26,942 nt of DNA from a virus. The first letter of the stretch is position 1. Every line of letters begins with the position of its first letter. The stretch is from positions 1 to 26,942 of the IMG/VR virus record IMGVR_UViG_3300049846_001148. One strand, 5' to 3'. The notes below the pieces were generated by a model, which ran no database searches, was not told where the DNA came from, and worked only from the letters and a program-made list of their open reading frames with translations. Both the position numbers and the translations under genes were made by a program. This document shows, in pieces, positions 10,400-18,535 of the stretch.

Positions 10400-13300
10400 T
10401 TATCCGTACATTAGATTGTCGCTCATTTGTTCTCCCATAGTATCTATGGTTGAATAATCATATGTTAAAGAAGGTTTGGTCGTTCCTTCAGATGATCCAC
10501 CATAATCTGAAGTAGGAAGTGGAATGAATACAACTTCAGGTTCTGGTTGTTCATAATCAATATAACCAGAAATTGTTTTGAGTTTTTCTATGATTGACGG
10601 TGCTCTTGCAACAAGTTGTGCTTTATTTTCAATACTATTAATATCAGTAAGAATATTTCCGACTAATCTAAAAGAATCTGCATCGGTTACACTTATGTAC
10701 TCACCTTTATGGAATTTTAATAATCCATCTTTAGTCATTACTTTATTCATTCCATGGAATGCATAAAAATCTGGGGCTCCTATATTTAATGGGTCACCTT
10801 GCTGTAGTGCCAATGATCCATCTGGTTTATATCTACCGTGTCCAACAAATGCATTTACACCCACAATGTCCGCAGAAACACCATAACCATCAGCTGAACT
10901 ATACTTCATTCCTTTCAATGCTAAGGGAAATGCAACTTTATTGCCAGCACCAAGTCCACCAATTTGAAGATCTAATTCTGTTTGTCTATGTGCTGCTTGC
11001 CCTCTAGCAATATATCCCCTTATCTGTTCATCAGTAGCGTTAGTGGGAATAAACTCTTTAGATCTTCCCACAAAGACTGATTTTCTGCCAAGAAAATGTT
11101 TAATTGTATTAAAACCTGCTGCAGCAACACCAGATCCATCACCTGGTTTAGTTGTACCAATATGAAAATGTGTTCCATATGATCTTCCAGAATTTCCTTG
11201 AATGAATCTACCATCCCCGCCTTTCAGAGAAACAGGACTAATTTTTTCAGATACTTGAGAAGAAGCTACTATTAATGCAGTGTTTCCTGCGGTATTAAAA
11301 TAATGATCTTTATATTTTACAACATTTACATTTTGGGATGGATCACTAAAAGCATATCCAGCTCTAAATCCAGTCGCAGCTAATAGTTTTCTTATAGATC
11401 CGTCATCAATACCTTCAGATTTTAAAAGTCCTTTTAATCTTTCTGGATTTTGAGCTAATTTAATTGCTTCTTTTGCTGCATCCATTTGAGCCGGTGTTCT
11501 TGGTTTATTAATACTTCCATTAGGATTACCATCCGCATATGGTTGATATTGTCCTCTTCCTGTAATTACGCCGGTAACTGTACTATCTTTTGCTGCGAAA
11601 GTCCCAGTTGATGCTTTACCAGACTGAATTAATCCAGCTCTATTAAGAACACTTCTAGCAACCAATGCTTGCCCAATCAGACCTTGACCTCCAGATTCTG
11701 CAATAATAAGTCTCTGGAATAAATCCATTTCACTTTCAGATAGAGTAGCATCTCCCATTCCTTCTTCAGGAGTCAAATACTCATCTTCTTTTTTGACTTT
11801 AACTCCGGGTTCTTCCTTCTTTAACATCAATTGTTTCATTAAGTCTTGAATGGTCTTATCAATTTCTGGAGCAACAGAATCTTGAAGAGACTTTGCAATT
11901 ACATCACTATAATCTTCACCAGAAACAATACTTTCCATTTTAACTTCGCCACCACCAGCATATGCAAGAGTTCCTGAAGCAATGGATTGATTCATCCAAT
12001 TGTTCACACCAGTTCCTGCATTTTTATAATCCACATAAGTTGGTTTATCTCCCATTATGGGTTTAATTGCAAGAGCAACTAATGCACCAAGACCAGATGA
12101 TTTTACAAAGGTATCATAAGAATTTTTTAGAAAATCAAACGGACTCATTTTTGATTTGTCTTTTGATTCTGGATACAATTCTTTTATTTTCTTTTCGCCA
12201 CCAACTACACTACCAGGTTTCAATCTAGAAGGTGTTGTTCTTAAAGTTCTTGGTGTTTTCTTTCTCGTAATCGTTCTTTTTCCAGAACCACTTACAGGTT
12301 TTCCACTACGAGTGGCAGGTTTTCCACCACCTGCAGCTTTGACTGTTTTACCTTGTGGTTTTTTATTCTCAAAGAACAAATCATATAAAGCACCACCAGC
12401 AATATCCCCTAAAGTTCCGCCAGCAAGTCCAGTCAGAAGCGCAAAAGGACCACCAACTGCTGCTCCAATTGCACCAAGTAATGTTGCACCGATTGCTCTA
12501 AATGCAGCTCTTCCAATCTTTTCCCCTAGAGCAACTGATAGTCCAAAGTCTAAAAGTCCACCAATAATAGGAAGACGTTTTGTGAATGGTCTTATAAACT
12601 TAAGAACTGTTTTTGCACCACCCTTACCAAGAATGCCAACAAATGCTTTTCTAGCTAACTGAGAAATTGGTCCTCTTGGTGGTTTCCCAGCAGGCCCTTT
12701 AGGTCTCTTGGGATCAACACCAGGATCACCACCAAATCCACCACTATCAGCAGTTGCAAGAGCAGCAATAATTGCAATCTCAATTACATTATCAATCGCG
12801 CCAGCAAACTTATCAAAGTTTTGTGCGAGTCCTTCACCCCCAAGTTGCTTTATAAACTGACGAGTTCCATCAATTGCCTTATAACCCCAGTCAACAAATG
12901 TTATAAGTCCATCAAGCATCTTACCACCAACATCAATAAAGAAATCACCAACCCCAATAATGACTGGAAGAATTTTTAATAGTTGTGGAAGAAAATCAAT
13001 TAAACGGACTGCAAAAAATCCAAGAATAGTTTGAGTAATAAAGTTCTTAATCCAATCCAAAAATCCCATCCTTGGAAGAGATGGTAACTTAATTCCTTTG
13101 ATTAATGGTGGTTTTTTCTTTTCTAATTCTTTTTCTTTCCCTTCAAACTTTTCTTTTTCTTTTCCCTTTCTTTTAGTTTCTTCTTCCTTCTTAGAAAGTA
13201 GTAAAGAATCTTTTAAAAGTTTATCAATCTTAACTACTTTTTTCTCAATATCAGAAAGTGAACTTCCTAGAAGTTTAGGAGACTCATTTTCTATACCACC

Positions 13301-13411
13301 TTTTATTGCTGTAGTTTTTGTTTTTATATTCAAAAATTTGCTTGGTTTGACTACAGCAGACTTTTGATATTTAACAATAGTAGAATTTGAAGAAGGAAGT
13401 AGTTTAGCCAT
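10400..13411 (-). CDS. Large tail protein with SleB-like cell-wall hydrolase domain
   Basis: 1003 residues. The N-terminal part has a coiled/Lys-Glu-rich stretch (about 45-105) and a hydrophobic segment around FLDWIKNFITQTILGF. About 270-345 is Gly/Ala-rich and membrane-like (GATLLGAIGAAVGGPFALL). Residues about 555-700 match the SleB-type cell-wall hydrolase pattern: LFQRLIIAESGGQGLIGQAL with the likely catalytic Glu, VARSVLNRAG, then GRGQYQPYADG. Around residue 745, SGRSYGTHFHIGT resembles the final HxH of M23 peptidases, but the first zinc motif is not seen. The C-terminus (YAFHGMNKVMTKDGLLKFHK) is unassigned. Its start overlaps the stop of the tape-measure gene (TAATG), so translation is coupled. 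Likely carried in or on the tail and used to open the host wall; the hydrolase call rests on motif recognition. Confidence 0.7.
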   Translation of the reverse strand: MAKLLPSSNSTIVKYQKSAVVKPSKFLNIKTKTTAIKGGIENESPKLLGSSLSDIEKKVVKIDKLLKDSLLLSKKEEETKRKGKEKEKFEGKEKELEKKKPPLIKGIKLPSLPRMGFLDWIKNFITQTILGFFAVRLIDFLPQLLKILPVIIGVGDFFIDVGGKMLDGLITFVDWGYKAIDGTRQFIKQLGGEGLAQNFDKFAGAIDNVIEIAIIAALATADSGGFGGDPGVDPKRPKGPAGKPPRGPISQLARKAFVGILGKGGAKTVLKFIRPFTKRLPIIGGLLDFGLSVALGEKIGRAAFRAIGATLLGAIGAAVGGPFALLTGLAGGTLGDIAGGALYDLFFENKKPQGKTVKAAGGGKPATRSGKPVSGSGKRTITRKKTPRTLRTTPSRLKPGSVVGGEKKIKELYPESKDKSKMSPFDFLKNSYDTFVKSSGLGALVALAIKPIMGDKPTYVDYKNAGTGVNNWMNQSIASGTLAYAGGGEVKMESIVSGEDYSDVIAKSLQDSVAPEIDKTIQDLMKQLMLKKEEPGVKVKKEDEYLTPEEGMGDATLSESEMDLFQRLIIAESGGQGLIGQALVARSVLNRAGLIQSGKASTGTFAAKDSTVTGVITGRGQYQPYADGNPNGSINKPRTPAQMDAAKEAIKLAQNPERLKGLLKSEGIDDGSIRKLLAATGFRAGYAFSDPSQNVNVVKYKDHYFNTAGNTALIVASSQVSEKISPVSLKGGDGRFIQGNSGRSYGTHFHIGTTKPGDGSGVAAAGFNTIKHFLGRKSVFVGRSKEFIPTNATDEQIRGYIARGQAAHRQTELDLQIGGLGAGNKVAFPLALKGMKYSSADGYGVSADIVGVNAFVGHGRYKPDGSLALQQGDPLNIGAPDFYAFHGMNKVMTKDGLLKFHKGEYISVTDADSFRLVGNILTDINSIENKAQLVARAPSIIEKLKTISGYIDYEQPEPEVVFIPLPTSDYGGSSEGTTKPSLTYDYSTIDTMGEQMSDNLMYG

Positions 13412-16086
13412 TATTTCTTATTGACTCCTAATGTACTTCTTGCAGTTCTTGTTGCGTTTGCGCTATGAGTTGGATTTTGAGTTTTTGGTTTTTGACTATT
13501 AGCAGGTCTTGCACCACTTCCTCTTCCACCACCCATTCCACCACCAGCAGGATTATACCTTGGTTTTGGTTTTGGTTTGGGAAGTGGCTTCACACTTTTC
13601 TTTAGTTCTGCTTGTCTTCTTGCAATCGTTGCTTGACTTGCACCTCTCGCTTTTAATGATGCAATAGAATTTTTAGATGCCTCTTCATATTTTTTTCTTT
13701 CATTTCTAGCATCAATATCTTTATATGCTCCAGGATTAATTGCTCTTCCTAACATTTCAAGAGGATTACTTGTTCCTGTTCCTGGTTGAGAACCTCTTAC
13801 ATAAACTAATTTACCACCTCTCATTGCTTTATAACCAACAAAAGGTCTTCCCTTATCATCAGTCATAACTTGAGTTTTGGGAGCATCTTTAAAAGACTGT
13901 TCTTTTAATTTATAACCACCTTTGATTGCACCACCCTTCAATCCAGCAAGTTTTCTTTTATTTGCTTCTTGCTGTAAGAATTTCAATCTATCAGTTTCTA
14001 TACCTCCATCCATAAAAGATCCCATAGGACCAGACTGTAATTTTTGTACTCTCTTTGTCTGCTCTTCAAGTTGTTTTTTTAATTCAGCGTCAGAAAGATT
14101 TCCTTCCCCAATTCCCATTTTATCATACAAATCTCCCACAGCAGCTTGAACTTGCGGTTTAAATATTTCGGCCAAACTTAATAGAATACCACCAACAATA
14201 CCACCTCTTCCACCACGACCACCAGGAACATTCATATTAGTTCTTATCTGCTGTATCTGTGGAGCAGAAAGTCCAGCGGTCACACCAGTTCTAGCAAGTC
14301 CTCCGCCACCATAAGGAACGATAGCACGACTTGCTGGTATTGGTTGTCTTACATTTTGTGCTGCTTTTGAAAAATAGTCTGCAGGAAGATTACTAAATTG
14401 ACCTCTTAAGAAATAGTCCGGTTTAAGGTTTGTGAATTGACCTCTTAAATTTGGTTTCGGTTTATTCAGTTTCGGTAAATTTTCAGCATATCTTGGAGCA
14501 GTTTTTGCATCCATATCAAATTTCTTCGCCAAGTCATCAAGTCCTGCTGCTGCTCTAGAACTTTGAGTGAATGATTGTGGATTATTAACTGCTTTTACTT
14601 TATCTGCTACAGATTGACGAATAGCATCAAGAGCATCATCATAACCGTGATGTCCCTGAAATATTCTTTCGTAAATATTTTTTCCACCGACCATTTTTGC
14701 AAAATCAGGTACTCCATTTAATTTCTTAAATGCTTTAAACAAATCTTCTTCTGTTCCAAATTGACTAAAAACACGCGCAGCACGTCTAAGAGTATCAACA
14801 TCAGGATTTGCTCCATAACTAGAAGCAAGAGGTATATCACCAATAGGACCACCGCCGGCAGCATAAGTAACTCCACTCGCAATCTGAGGAATATTAGTTC
14901 CTCCTCCCGCAGCATTCATTGCTTCGAAGGTTTCAACTCCATACTTATTAACAGCACCAGCAGATACAACAAATTCACCATTAGTAAGCATCGCAGGAAC
15001 TTTATCTTTTCCTTTTGGTCCTTTTACAAGACCACTAAACATATTACCAAAACCTTTATTCCATCCGCCACCAGAGAATCCTGGAATCTTTATATCGCCA
15101 CTTGCAAGTCCACTAATTCCAGCAGCTGTACCTGCAGTTACAGCAACATCAGCAGCAATTCCGATTCCTGTTGCTATTGCTCTTCCTCTTGGACCTCCAA
15201 GAAATTTAGCAGCACCAGAAAAACCTTTAAGTCCCGCCTTTACTGCGAGTCTAGCAGCAAGTGCCCCAAGTTTAAAAGCACCTTTAATTAATATCCCACC
15301 AAGTCTTCCAACAAATCTTCCAATACCAGTTCCAAATCTTAGGTATAATGCAAGAAGTGTTGGCCAATGATCCTTAAAGAATCGAATAATGCTTTGTATT
15401 TTACCCTGATTATTTGGATCAGCAAACCAATCAAGAAGTTTGAGTAGTGTCCTACCCAACAATATCATTGTAATGAATTTTACAATTCTACTCCAAATAG
15501 ACTCAAATGGTTTTAAGATCCCTTTAACTGCATTCTTAACGCCGTCAAAAATTTTAGATTCAAATTCTTTCTCTTTACCCGCTCTTCTTTTTCCCTCTGC
15601 TTCTTTTCTTTCCTTATCACTTCTTTTCTTACTTTCTTTGTTAATATCAGTAAGAGTTTTAAGAATAGAATCTAATGTATTACTAATTCTTGATAAAACA
15701 TCTGAGTCACTATCTTTTCCTTTTAAAAACTCAGGTTTTCCTTTTGGAACTCCACCAACAGGAGCAAGCATTAATCTGCTTTGAGCTCCTCTAACTTGTT
15801 TACGAATTCCCCCAAGTCCAAGTCCAGTTGCAGTAACTTTGGAACTCTTGGGTACAATTCTAAATCTACCTTTCTTTCCTCTTACTCTTTTAAATTCATT
15901 CTTAATTAATTCAGTTTCTCCACTATCAATCTTTCTTTTTCCAGAAGTAATCTCAACTAGGAGTTCTTTTAAATATGAATTGTACTTCTCATAACTAAGT
16001 TCATCAACCTCATTAGGTTCTAAGGCTAGTAACCCTAAAATTACCTCATCTATATTCTCTTTAGGTAAAGTTGGATTACCAGCCAT
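13411..16086 (-). CDS. Tail tape-measure-like protein (gp29 position)
   Basis: 891 residues. It has a Lys/Arg/Glu-rich coil at about 140-180 (KKRSDKERKEAEGKRRAGKE), a hydrophobic helix near WSRIVKFITMILLGRTLLKL, and a Gly/Ala-rich hydrophobic block at about 260-335. Residues about 360-395 hold KDKVPAMLTNGEFVVSAGAV and YGVETFEAMNAAGGG, a motif I recall from many phage tape-measure proteins. The C-terminus is basic and Gly/Pro/Asn-rich. Directly upstream are the gp26 and gp51-like chaperones, the usual neighbours of a tape-measure gene; its start lies inside the gp51-like gene (11-bp overlap). In T4 the gp29 tape measure fixes tail length and stays in the hub. Role strongly suggested by motif and order; sequence equivalence with gp29 is uncertain. 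Confidence 0.75.
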   Translation of the reverse strand: MAGNPTLPKENIDEVILGLLALEPNEVDELSYEKYNSYLKELLVEITSGKRKIDSGETELIKNEFKRVRGKKGRFRIVPKSSKVTATGLGLGGIRKQVRGAQSRLMLAPVGGVPKGKPEFLKGKDSDSDVLSRISNTLDSILKTLTDINKESKKRSDKERKEAEGKRRAGKEKEFESKIFDGVKNAVKGILKPFESIWSRIVKFITMILLGRTLLKLLDWFADPNNQGKIQSIIRFFKDHWPTLLALYLRFGTGIGRFVGRLGGILIKGAFKLGALAARLAVKAGLKGFSGAAKFLGGPRGRAIATGIGIAADVAVTAGTAAGISGLASGDIKIPGFSGGGWNKGFGNMFSGLVKGPKGKDKVPAMLTNGEFVVSAGAVNKYGVETFEAMNAAGGGTNIPQIASGVTYAAGGGPIGDIPLASSYGANPDVDTLRRAARVFSQFGTEEDLFKAFKKLNGVPDFAKMVGGKNIYERIFQGHHGYDDALDAIRQSVADKVKAVNNPQSFTQSSRAAAGLDDLAKKFDMDAKTAPRYAENLPKLNKPKPNLRGQFTNLKPDYFLRGQFSNLPADYFSKAAQNVRQPIPASRAIVPYGGGGLARTGVTAGLSAPQIQQIRTNMNVPGGRGGRGGIVGGILLSLAEIFKPQVQAAVGDLYDKMGIGEGNLSDAELKKQLEEQTKRVQKLQSGPMGSFMDGGIETDRLKFLQQEANKRKLAGLKGGAIKGGYKLKEQSFKDAPKTQVMTDDKGRPFVGYKAMRGGKLVYVRGSQPGTGTSNPLEMLGRAINPGAYKDIDARNERKKYEEASKNSIASLKARGASQATIARRQAELKKSVKPLPKPKPKPRYNPAGGGMGGGRGSGARPANSQKPKTQNPTHSANATRTARSTLGVNKK

Positions 16087-16261
16087 TGTTACTTTGTTGT
16101 TTCTGTTTGTACTCTTCTTCCTCTATATGTTGCTTGAGAAGTTCAACATAAACGTCTCTTTCCCAAGGGATCATATTTTCAATTTCAGTCAATGAATATT
16201 TATGGTATTGCATCAACGAAAAATTAAGTCGAAAGTAATTTTCAAGGTCCATATGGACCAT
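16076..16261 (-). CDS. gp51-like tail assembly chaperone, probably made by -1 frameshift from gp26
   Basis: The frame opens at ATG 16261 (61 aa) and contains QYHKYSLTEIENMIPWERDV followed by YVELLKQHIEEEE. This 'IPWERD.Y..LL..HIEEE' ending is the T-part of tail assembly chaperones, annotated as gp51 or hub-assembly factor in T4-like phages. No Shine-Dalgarno precedes either ATG (16261 or 16252). Instead the gp26 gene ends in a T_TTT_TTC slip site, and a -1 shift enters this frame without a stop. The independent start may therefore be unused, and the main product may be the gp26-gp51 fusion of about 302 residues. Its end overlaps the start of the tape-measure gene. The family call is from memory of the motif. 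Confidence 0.7.
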   Translation of the reverse strand: MVHMDLENYFRLNFSLMQYHKYSLTEIENMIPWERDVYVELLKQHIEEEEYKQKQQSNNGW

Positions 16262-16276
16262 TGCTATGCGAAAAAA
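16243..16276 (-). promoter_or_regulatory. Predicted -1 programmed ribosomal frameshift site
   Basis: Reverse strand 16276-16270 reads T_TTT_TTC in the gp26 frame (codons AGT TTT TTC GCA TAG), the canonical X_XXY_YYZ slip heptamer. Both codons are Phe, so both tRNAs can re-pair after a -1 slip. A 6-nt spacer (16269-16264) follows. Then comes a hairpin at 16263-16243: CAA and TTG arms, a T bulge, and the stem GGTCC/GGACC with an ATAT loop. The -1 frame runs R-I-A then into the gp51-like ATG with no stop. Confidence 0.7.
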
Positions 16277-16983
16277 CTTGATAATCCCTCAAGAACAACT
16301 TCACTTTCAACTTCAGTAACTGGATTTTTAACTTTAACAGTATGAGAAAGTTTGGGCATAGTTTCAAAAAACTTCTCAATCTGCTTAAACTGATTTGAAT
16401 TCATTTGGTCCAAGAAGTCCATCAGTTCTTTTTTGGTTACATCAGATGCACTCCAAACTTCATCTTCATTATAAATTTTATCTACACAAGAGGCAACAAG
16501 TTCAAAAGATTGCTCCATCGCATTATTACTTGATAAATCAAAATTATTCTTAATAAATTGATCTAATGATGGATATTTCATTTCCATCATTAAGTTATCA
16601 TCAAGTTTAATTTGATTTACATGCTCATCGTTTCTCTGAACTTGGATATCATCCACACTAATTTTCACGGGAACATAAGTTTCCCCATCATCTGGACAAA
16701 TAACATTAACTTCAATCTCTTCACCAACCGACTTTCCTCTAATATTTAAAAACAAAAATTCAATATCAAACGTAGGAAGTGTTTCTACTTTGACATTTTT
16801 GGTTTCAATACAATTTTTAATAACTGTTTTAATTGCAGTAGTGATCTGCTTTGTATCTTCAGATTCTAATGCAATGACTAAAAGTTTTTCTTCTTTAACT
16901 AAGAATGGTCTATATTTTATAGTCTGACCAGTAGAAGGTAATTCCAACTCATAAGTTGGAGTTGCAATTTTTGGTAAAGGCAT
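16264..16983 (-). CDS. 26: gp26-like baseplate hub / tail assembly protein
   Basis: 239 residues, starting MPLPKIATPTYELELPSTGQ and continuing TIKYRPFLVKEEKLLVIALE, the conserved start of the T4-type baseplate protein family (gp26). In the middle, VGEEIEVNVICPDDGETYVP has a zinc-like or beta turn; the C-terminal half is helical (KKELMDFLDQMNSNQFKQIE) and ends MPKLSHTVKVKNPVTEVESE and a short Phe tail. A good Shine-Dalgarno (AGGAGA) lies 7 nt before the ATG at 16983, and a late-promoter-like AATAAATA lies in the gap before it. It is followed by the gp51-like frame and then the tape measure. It probably acts as the tail assembly chaperone that holds the tape measure; that part is inference from gene order. 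Confidence 0.85.
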   Translation of the reverse strand: MPLPKIATPTYELELPSTGQTIKYRPFLVKEEKLLVIALESEDTKQITTAIKTVIKNCIETKNVKVETLPTFDIEFLFLNIRGKSVGEEIEVNVICPDDGETYVPVKISVDDIQVQRNDEHVNQIKLDDNLMMEMKYPSLDQFIKNNFDLSSNNAMEQSFELVASCVDKIYNEDEVWSASDVTKKELMDFLDQMNSNQFKQIEKFFETMPKLSHTVKVKNPVTEVESEVVLEGLSSFFA

Positions 16984-17022: not shown

Positions 17023-18024
17023 TCACACAACAAGACCACCACTTCCAGGATTAATTTGACCTGGATTCAATCCCAAACCAGGAGTAGTTTGAATATCACT
17101 AGTACCAAACTTTGGATTTGTAAAGTTAGGATTCTCTTGAAACTGACCATTGCTTATAGAAACTCCTGTTGCTGGTGTTTGAGTTGGTTCTTGCTCAACT
17201 TGATTTTGTGCTATATTACCTGCAACATAACGATCATATGTAAAGGAAACAGATACTTTAAGTAACTGAGATGAATCATAAGAAACAGGCATAGATCCAA
17301 CAGAAATTGGAAATGCATTAATGAATTTATAAACCATTCTTCCAGATGTCCTTCCTGAGCCAAGATCTCTTTCAAATTTTGTTATGCTAATAAATGGAGA
17401 CTTATACTGTTTTGGATATTTAATTCTATAAAAATTTGTAATATCATCCGAATTTGCAATTTGCTCACCCGAAATATACCTCATCCACGCTTCGAAATAT
17501 CTAATTTGATCATATCCTTGTCCCGGTCTACTTGTAGAATTGACATAAAAGGTGAAGTCAACACGATCATCATATAATCTTCTATATGCATGTCTCTGGG
17601 TTACACCAGTAAAGTCATTATTTAATTCGTGAGTAGTTAATGAAGATCCTGGCAAAGAAGCATCAGAACAAGAAATTAAAAGGAGATCAGTCATATCAAA
17701 AGGAAATCCGCTTTTATCTATGAATGATTTTGCTTCTGGTGGTGGATTGATATAAACTTCATAATGTGAAGTTAATGCTGGTTGCATTAACTTTGTTTTT
17801 ATAAAACTAACGTCTCTTACTCTTGGGTTTGGTGGAGTTCCTCCAGTAGCTTGTGAAGGAATTCCAGTTCCTGGACTTGTTCCACTTCCAGAAGTTGTTG
17901 TAGTTGATGGAAGAGGAACCCCTGTTGCTGTTCGGTTATTGACAATAGTATAAGAAAGACCTTCACTTGAGGTGACTACTGTATTACCATTTGAATCTAT
18001 AGTGCGAATGTCAGTTTCTGCCAT
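17023..18024 (-). CDS. 54: gp54-like baseplate tail-tube initiator
   Basis: Using the ATG at 18024 the protein is 333 residues and starts MAETDIRTIDSNGNTVVTSS. A Ser/Thr/Gly-rich linker (about 25-70) precedes the conserved core: RDVSFIKTKLMQPALTSHYE, LLLISCSDASLPGSSLTTHE, QRHAYRRLYDDRVDFTFYVN, and MVYKFINAFPISVGSMPVSY followed by VSFTYDRYVAG. The last segments are the tube-like fold shared with T4 gp54/gp19, the protein that starts the tail tube on the baseplate. An ATG at 18102 would add 26 residues but would overlap the divergent gp4 start and its late promoter, so it is less likely. The C-terminus is Gly/Pro/Asn-rich and probably disordered. First gene of the minus-strand tail block, divergent from gp4. 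Confidence 0.8.
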   Translation of the reverse strand: MAETDIRTIDSNGNTVVTSSEGLSYTIVNNRTATGVPLPSTTTTSGSGTSPGTGIPSQATGGTPPNPRVRDVSFIKTKLMQPALTSHYEVYINPPPEAKSFIDKSGFPFDMTDLLLISCSDASLPGSSLTTHELNNDFTGVTQRHAYRRLYDDRVDFTFYVNSTSRPGQGYDQIRYFEAWMRYISGEQIANSDDITNFYRIKYPKQYKSPFISITKFERDLGSGRTSGRMVYKFINAFPISVGSMPVSYDSSQLLKVSVSFTYDRYVAGNIAQNQVEQEPTQTPATGVSISNGQFQENPNFTNPKFGTSDIQTTPGLGLNPGQINPGSGGLVV

Positions 18025-18051
18025 CTTATCTTTGTGTAATGGTTGGTCACC

Positions 18052-18059
18052 TATAAATA
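18052..18059 (+). promoter_or_regulatory. T4-type late promoter for the gp4-gp48-gp53 operon
   Basis: Exact TATAAATA on the plus strand, 29 nt before the gp4 ATG at 18089, in the 64-nt divergent gap between gp54 and gp4. It matches the T4 late consensus. No equally good match for gp54 is visible on the reverse strand. Confidence 0.8.
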
Positions 18060-18088
18060 CTTTTACTGATATATTATGTATACTGGAA

Positions 18089-18535
18089 ATGGCGGAAAGC
18101 ATTAAAAGTATCTACAAACCATCTTATCCAGAAAAATATAAAGGAGATGCGAATAATATAATTTGCAGAAGCAGTTGGGAGCGCAAATTCTGTTATTACT
18201 GTGATCATAACCCAAGCATCATTTCTTGGGCATCTGAAGAATTTTGTATAAGTTATGTGTCTCCTGTGGATGGTAGAGTGCATCGGTACTTTCCAGACTA
18301 CTTAATTAAAGTTCAAGAATCATCTGGTAAAATCAAAACTTATGTAATTGAAGTGAAACCAAAGAAACAAACTGTTCCTCCTAAACAAAAATCAAGAGTG
18401 ACTAAATCATATCTTCATGAATGTAGAACTTATGCAGTTAATCAAGCAAAATGGAAAGCAGCGCAGGAATGGTGTGCTGATAGAATGTTAGAATTCAAAG
18501 TCATTACAGAAGAAGAACTTTTTAACTCACGATAA
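18089..18535 (+). CDS. 4: Head completion protein gp4 (nuclease-like fold)
   Basis: 148 residues, close to the T4 gp4 length (150). Starts MAESIKSIYKPSYPEKYKGD and contains ICRSSWERKFCYYCDHNPSI, then RYFPDYLIKV and KTYVIEVKPKKQT. PD...(x)n...E-V-K is the catalytic signature of the PD-(D/E)XK nuclease fold, matching the known head completion nuclease type. The C-terminus has the conserved YAVNQAKWKAAQEWC and IITEEELF-like ending. An upstream in-frame ATG at 17972 would place the start inside gp54 and before the late promoter, so 18089 is preferred. In T4, gp4 acts at head completion before tail joining. Its stop overlaps the next start (TAATG). Confidence 0.85.
   Translation: MAESIKSIYKPSYPEKYKGDANNIICRSSWERKFCYYCDHNPSIISWASEEFCISYVSPVDGRVHRYFPDYLIKVQESSGKIKTYVIEVKPKKQTVPPKQKSRVTKSYLHECRTYAVNQAKWKAAQEWCADRMLEFKVITEEELFNSR

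Follow-up and report, generated by a model that had tools for sequence, protein, structure and literature searches.

A probable programmed −1 frameshift at the gp26–gp51 junction of T4-like phages that would yield short and long tail assembly chaperones

A programmed −1 ribosomal frameshift very probably lets a single locus supply two tail assembly chaperones in the marine T4-like cyanophage whose 26,942-nucleotide stretch of DNA (the window) was analyzed here. Most ribosomes would read the gp26-like gene to its TAG stop codon and produce the short chaperone (TAC-N, comparable to lambda gpG). At the heptamer T_TTT_TTC, two tRNA-Phe would re-pair one base upstream, on TTT-TTT, aided by a hairpin located 6 nt farther downstream and perhaps also by an upstream, G-rich sequence resembling a Shine-Dalgarno. 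The minority of ribosomes that slipped would continue in the gp51-like frame to give a long form of 302 residues (TAC-NC, like lambda gpGT), which presumably bridges the chaperone coat and the tape measure specified by the next gene. For the window phage we thus predict a short and a long form with a common N-terminus; in T4, the long form is gp51. Sequence comparisons strongly support this reading; the slipping itself, its efficiency, and its role in tail assembly are inferred.

The gp26-like gene (positions 16,264–16,983, minus strand) encodes a 239-aa candidate short chaperone (TAC-N, G-like) that matches PF12322 (E = 1.7e-76; 257 bits, against a curated cut-off of 24.5) and phrog_150 (E = 3e-81). 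Upstream of it lies a tail tube protein gene (17,023–18,102, minus strand; PF23849, E = 4.8e-10; phrog_45, E = 2.4e-30). The downstream gene (13,411–16,086, minus strand) had been described as tape-measure-like in the original prediction, a description that we keep on the strength of weak matches to tape-measure PHROGs. The order tail tube, gp26 chaperone, T-like extension, tape-measure-like gene is the same as in lambda. A second large tape-measure-like ORF (10,400–13,411, 1003 aa) has a weak match to a cell wall hydrolase family (PF07486, E = 0.0011) and matches to endolysin PHROGs.

On the minus strand, gp26 ends with TCA AGT TTT TTC GCA TAG. The slippery heptamer of the X_XXY_YYZ type, T_TTT_TTC, occupies positions 16,270–16,276 (minus strand) in the gp26 frame, and the TAG stop (16,264–16,266, minus strand) follows one codon past the slip site; the location and phase originally given for the heptamer, near the end of gp26, agree with the sequence. 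The −1 extension (16,076–16,270, minus strand) begins with the new codon CGC (16,270–16,268) and comprises 64 codons and a stop. It encodes a gp51-like, T-like domain (phrog_634, E = 1.5e-28). As predicted, CGC ATA GCA ATG leads without a stop into a 61-aa "gp51" ORF of the kind that a gene finder would call (16,076–16,261, minus strand), and the fused product has 238 + 64 = 302 residues. The 61-aa frame matches phrog_634, annotated as "baseplate hub assembly catalyst," as well as the C-terminal end of phrog_150, a longer profile. No stop interrupts the −1 frame in any of the complete relatives (148/148), where it is 55–68 codons long. Its pN/pS is 0.16, compared with values above 1 in the other two frames; the −1 frame is under purifying selection.

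The 61-aa ORF is probably not initiated independently. It has an ATG in the window without a Shine-Dalgarno sequence, as had been noted: both ATGs in this frame score +0.5 and −2.2 kcal/mol, versus −6.1 for gp26, so that the frame lacks the ribosome site of its own expected of an independent gene. In 58 of 150 non-redundant relatives, there is no ATG, GTG, or TTG ahead of the conserved core; where relatives do have an ATG in the small frame, a good Shine-Dalgarno match accompanies 2% of them, compared with 20% of gp26 starts. Peptide conservation in the −1 frame starts at the residue just after the slip (R-[IL]-A-L...), upstream of possible start codons. These observations bear on termination-reinitiation, by which ribosomes terminating at TAG would begin anew at the ATG that follows after 2 nt, making the gp51-like product from a separate small gene. 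In the window, TAG CA ATG does place a start right behind the gp26 stop, and GenBank records show separate gp51 genes, but in deposited annotations the gp51 start is placed variably or the gene is missed altogether. Reinitiation cannot serve the relatives that have no start codon at all, it does not account for conservation that begins ahead of any ATG, and it leaves the fixed heptamer and the hairpin unexplained. We consider it very unlikely as the general explanation; in the window phage, reinitiation at this ATG could be an extra route, yielding a short product.

The sequence TTTTTTC is not itself rare in the window (22 occurrences in any phase, compared with 23 in shuffles), and the case for frameshifting therefore stands on phase and conservation. 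The sole in-frame T_TTT_TTC among the 27 window genes examined is the one at the end of gp26. On the sense strand of window genes, TTTTTT (11 places) is rarer than AAAAAA (50 places). An alignment of the junction in relatives, which had been suggested as a check of the original prediction, placed the extension in the −1 frame and showed T_TTT_TT[C/T/G] in frame, directly or one codon before the stop, in 218 of 224 loci with a complete gp26 end, drawn from IMG/VR contigs and annotated phages. Loci with the heptamer span several phage families and include those of Kyanoviridae, of the Vibrio phages nt-1 and QD01, and of the Aeromonas phages phiAS5 and AsFcp_1, as well as Pseudomonas Milchi, Stenotrophomonas YB07, and Rhizobium RL2RES. 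In one locus (L088, TTT TTC TAA) and in five others, the gp26 stop comes directly after the heptamer. Judged from these sequences, the phase of the heptamer is conserved in relatives far above codon-usage expectation, though naive probabilities for this conservation are overstated because the sequences are related.

An alternative source of the long frame is transcriptional slippage, in which RNA polymerase would add or drop a base on the T6 run. The homopolymer is there, and a few relatives have seven or eight T; most, however, have exactly six T followed by C, in a phase that fits tandem tRNA re-pairing, longer runs are not favored, and a putative stimulatory hairpin is conserved downstream. 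We regard this mechanism as extremely unlikely.

A contrast drawn within the same genes is independent of the naive probabilities. In 150 gp26 loci, reduced to <90% identity, Phe-Phe at the slip is encoded by TTT-TTC in 145, whereas internal Phe-Phe pairs of these 150 genes are encoded by TTC-TTT (96), TTT-TTT (38), TTC-TTC (12), or TTT-TTC (4). The codon before the slip ends in T in 150/150 loci, even though seven different codons are used (TCT, AGT, AAT, GAT, GGT, ACT, and GCT). We give practically no credence to the idea that the heptamer simply reflects conservation of Phe-Phe where gp26 ends and that gp51 is unfused, since, although Phe-Phe itself is conserved, T4 gp26 included, the T4 pair is TTC TTT in another context, TTT TTC is so seldom used internally (4/150), and T4 gp51 joins the same two parts in a natural fusion.

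Programmed frameshifting at the heptamer may be stimulated by flanking elements. The candidate downstream stimulator, identified by folding and covariation, is a hairpin, CAA-T-GGTCC-ATAT-GGACC-TTG, at positions 16,243–16,263 (minus strand). The sequence bears out the predicted GGTCC/GGACC stem extended by CAA/TTG; the loop is ATAT, and a bulged T separates the extension from the stem. The predicted fold of −9.7 kcal/mol (z = −2.6) has a rank p of 0.01 against synonymous recodings. For the 73 sequences of the window clade, the mean folding energy of the 41 nt downstream is −9.2 kcal/mol, whereas synonymous recodings in the −1 frame average −4.0. The corresponding values for the S-RSM4 clade are −13.7 and −3.5, and 38/38 of its sequences fall below p 0.05. 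The same folding test revealed no downstream structure in the L103-like clade; there, the upstream Shine-Dalgarno-like match is stronger. In the window clade, both partners vary in 7 of 8 hairpin pairs; the score for covariation is 0.266, compared with 0.180 for shuffles (0/500 as high) and at most 0.188 for slid versions. The S-RSM4 stem is nearly invariant, so little covariation is available there. A search of Rfam matched no family at the slip site.

The possible upstream stimulator, GAGGGA (16,285–16,290, minus strand), lies about 8 nt before the heptamer and was singled out by codon choice. At the Glu-Gly before the slip, GAG is used in 55/72 cases, compared with 29% in these genes overall, and GGG in 22/72, compared with 10%. 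A duplex-energy test of this element in the window clade was not significant. The evidence for an upstream Shine-Dalgarno-like stimulator is suggestive only; as a firm stimulator in the window clade, an internal Shine-Dalgarno is unsupported by the energy test, though codon choice leans toward it.

T4 provides a natural contrast. The whole of T4 gp51 (249 aa) matches phrog_150, and the C-terminal part of the protein also matches phrog_634; T4 gp26 matches phrog_150 without the C-terminal end. The two proteins align with each other with E = 2e-6 (a single comparison), and the −1 extension of the window matches the C-terminus of T4 gp51. The gp26–gp51 profile comparison proposed with the original prediction thus shows gp51 to resemble gp26 plus the phrog_634 domain. 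Since T4 gp51 is homologous to gp26 along its length and carries an extra C-terminal domain, the short and long forms are specified by two genes in T4. The analogy to G/GT drawn originally stands, but the accompanying view of T4 gp26 and gp51 as two separate roles does not: gp51 is the long, fused form of the gp26 fold. The protein families are the same in T4 and in the window, T4 gp51 consisting of a gp26-like domain joined to the domain found here in the −1 frame; the difference is that T4 has two separately initiated genes, each with a Shine-Dalgarno, whereas cyanophages have a slip site in gp26. Gene 51 of T4 and of 44RR encodes a full-length fused protein and has a good ribosome site of its own (−7.9 and −8.2, respectively). 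T4 gene 26 also has its own ribosome site (−7.9), and its end, AAA GAG TTC TTT GAG, has lost the heptamer. Assembly requires T4 gp51, but the finished particle does not contain it (PMC3004832). In cyanophages, gp51 reaches about 20% of its usual length (Sullivan et al., 2010). Frameshifting would explain why cyanophage "gp51" is about one fifth as long as T4 gp51 and why annotations disagree on where it begins: it probably forms the end of a frameshifted chaperone instead of being a gene in its own right. The T4 hub assembly chaperones gp26 and gp51 would in this way be tied to G/GT, cyanophages using a frameshift and T4 a gene pair.

Structure prediction is consistent with a chaperone function of gp26. 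An AlphaFold2 model of gp26, built from 64 sequences, has a pLDDT of 87. Its predicted N-terminal domain was compared with a preselected list of chains, in which the HK97 tail assembly chaperone (2ob9; Z = 7.8, 84 residues, 4.0 Å) and YqbN (3klu; Z = 7.3, 86 residues, 4.3 Å) rank first and second over residues 1–86/88, the next entry having Z = 4.9. Foldseek on its own found no significant match to the gp26 model in the PDB, and a PDB sequence search with gp26 found no relative. With Z below 8, a match confined to residues 1–88, and a preselected list, the fold is supportive and not proof; it suggests that the modeled gp26 N-terminus resembles solved tail assembly chaperones. Taken with T4 gp51 being the fused long form of gp26, this N-terminal resemblance leads us to predict a G/GT-type pair made by frameshifting.

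Frameshifted tail chaperones are a classic trait of long-tailed phages. Xu, Hendrix and Duda reportedly described, in 2004, the frameshift that gives the lambda chaperones gpG and gpGT and its conserved relatives in long-tailed phages. The locus described here resembles that of lambda in having a short chaperone ORF, a −1 slip near its 3′ end, and a T-like extension in the −1 frame, in lying between the tail tube and tape measure genes, and in the slight overlap between T and the tape measure gene. It differs in the slip site, which in lambda we take to be GGGAAAG (the motif is visible at the end of lambda G) and here is T_TTT_TTC, and in its sequences, which belong to the T4 gp26 family (PF12322). 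The −1 frameshift of the E. coli dnaX type uses an A-rich X_XXY_YYZ slip site in a host gene, a downstream hairpin, and an upstream Shine-Dalgarno-like stimulator. The heptamer type and downstream hairpin are shared with the window; the upstream element is only suggested here, and the site is T-rich and lies in a phage gene.

For T4-like phages, Vladimirov, Gautam and Davidson (Virology, 2022) are said to have identified the chaperone genes, with gp26 as the short and gp51 as the long form. A passage of the PRFect paper cites Vladimirov et al. (2022) for T4-like phages with short and fused genes (PMC10885494), and a passage of the Adele paper cites the same work for poly-T −1 slip signals in T4-like TAC-N genes (PMC12846349). 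The original prediction knew of no report of this slip in T4-like phages; the latter passage treats poly-T signals there as known, and the outline of the T4-like chaperone frameshift thus appears to have been published already. The Adele paper also gives a TAC frameshift at GTTTTT in Vandenendeviridae and Andersonviridae (PMC12846349). These phages, too, have a poly-T −1 slip where TAC-N ends and an extension, giving TAC-NC, that precedes the tape measure gene, but they belong to other families and use another motif, and the passage concerned carries no hairpin or start-codon evidence (PMC12846349). What our analysis adds to prior work is the evidence from the hairpin, from start codons, and from the natural contrast with T4 and 44RR.

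The −1 frame and the tape-measure-like gene of the window share 11 nt (16,076–16,086), including the ATG of the latter, which lacks a Shine-Dalgarno. Of 133 relatives, 106 have the start of the next gene no more than 20 nt ahead of where the −1 frame ends, and a Shine-Dalgarno is rare (6%). With such a start, it would be mainly slipped ribosomes that reach and start the tape measure gene, so the frameshift might also gate tape measure synthesis, a possibility that we consider doubtful. Shine-Dalgarno sites are often missing from cyanobacterial genes, and the analogy with lambda is weakened because the lambda tape measure gene, H, has a strong Shine-Dalgarno, in contrast to the gene here. Were gating to occur, output of tape measure would be tied to that of the long chaperone.

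Some relatives have atypical junctions. In Rhizobium RHph_I1_18, T_TTT_TTA lies deeper inside the annotated gene, and the extension is in the −1 frame. Two Ackermannviridae loci (L226 and L227) and Vibrio phage K355 (L093) have a −1 extension without a canonical heptamer, which rules out the same heptamer at their junctions; the gp26-like ends in this group read ATT TTC ATT TAA or CTT TTC AAG TAA. The long chaperone may perhaps be made in these phages by a single-tRNA slip at TTC. The junction probably has to be re-annotated in numerous T4-like genomes: gp26 matched 686 phage records, of which a minority were examined at this point.

In Listeria phage LIS04, at about positions 2190–2260 of its record, an extension-like domain is found in the +1 frame after GAG TTT TTT AGT, an arrangement that suggests that SP-15-like phages either shift by +1 or start the domain separately. 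Stenotrophomonas phage IME-SM1 has one T fewer in the slip run than YB07, which gives its gp26 a longer, unrelated end; the missing T is possibly a homopolymer sequencing error in the record.
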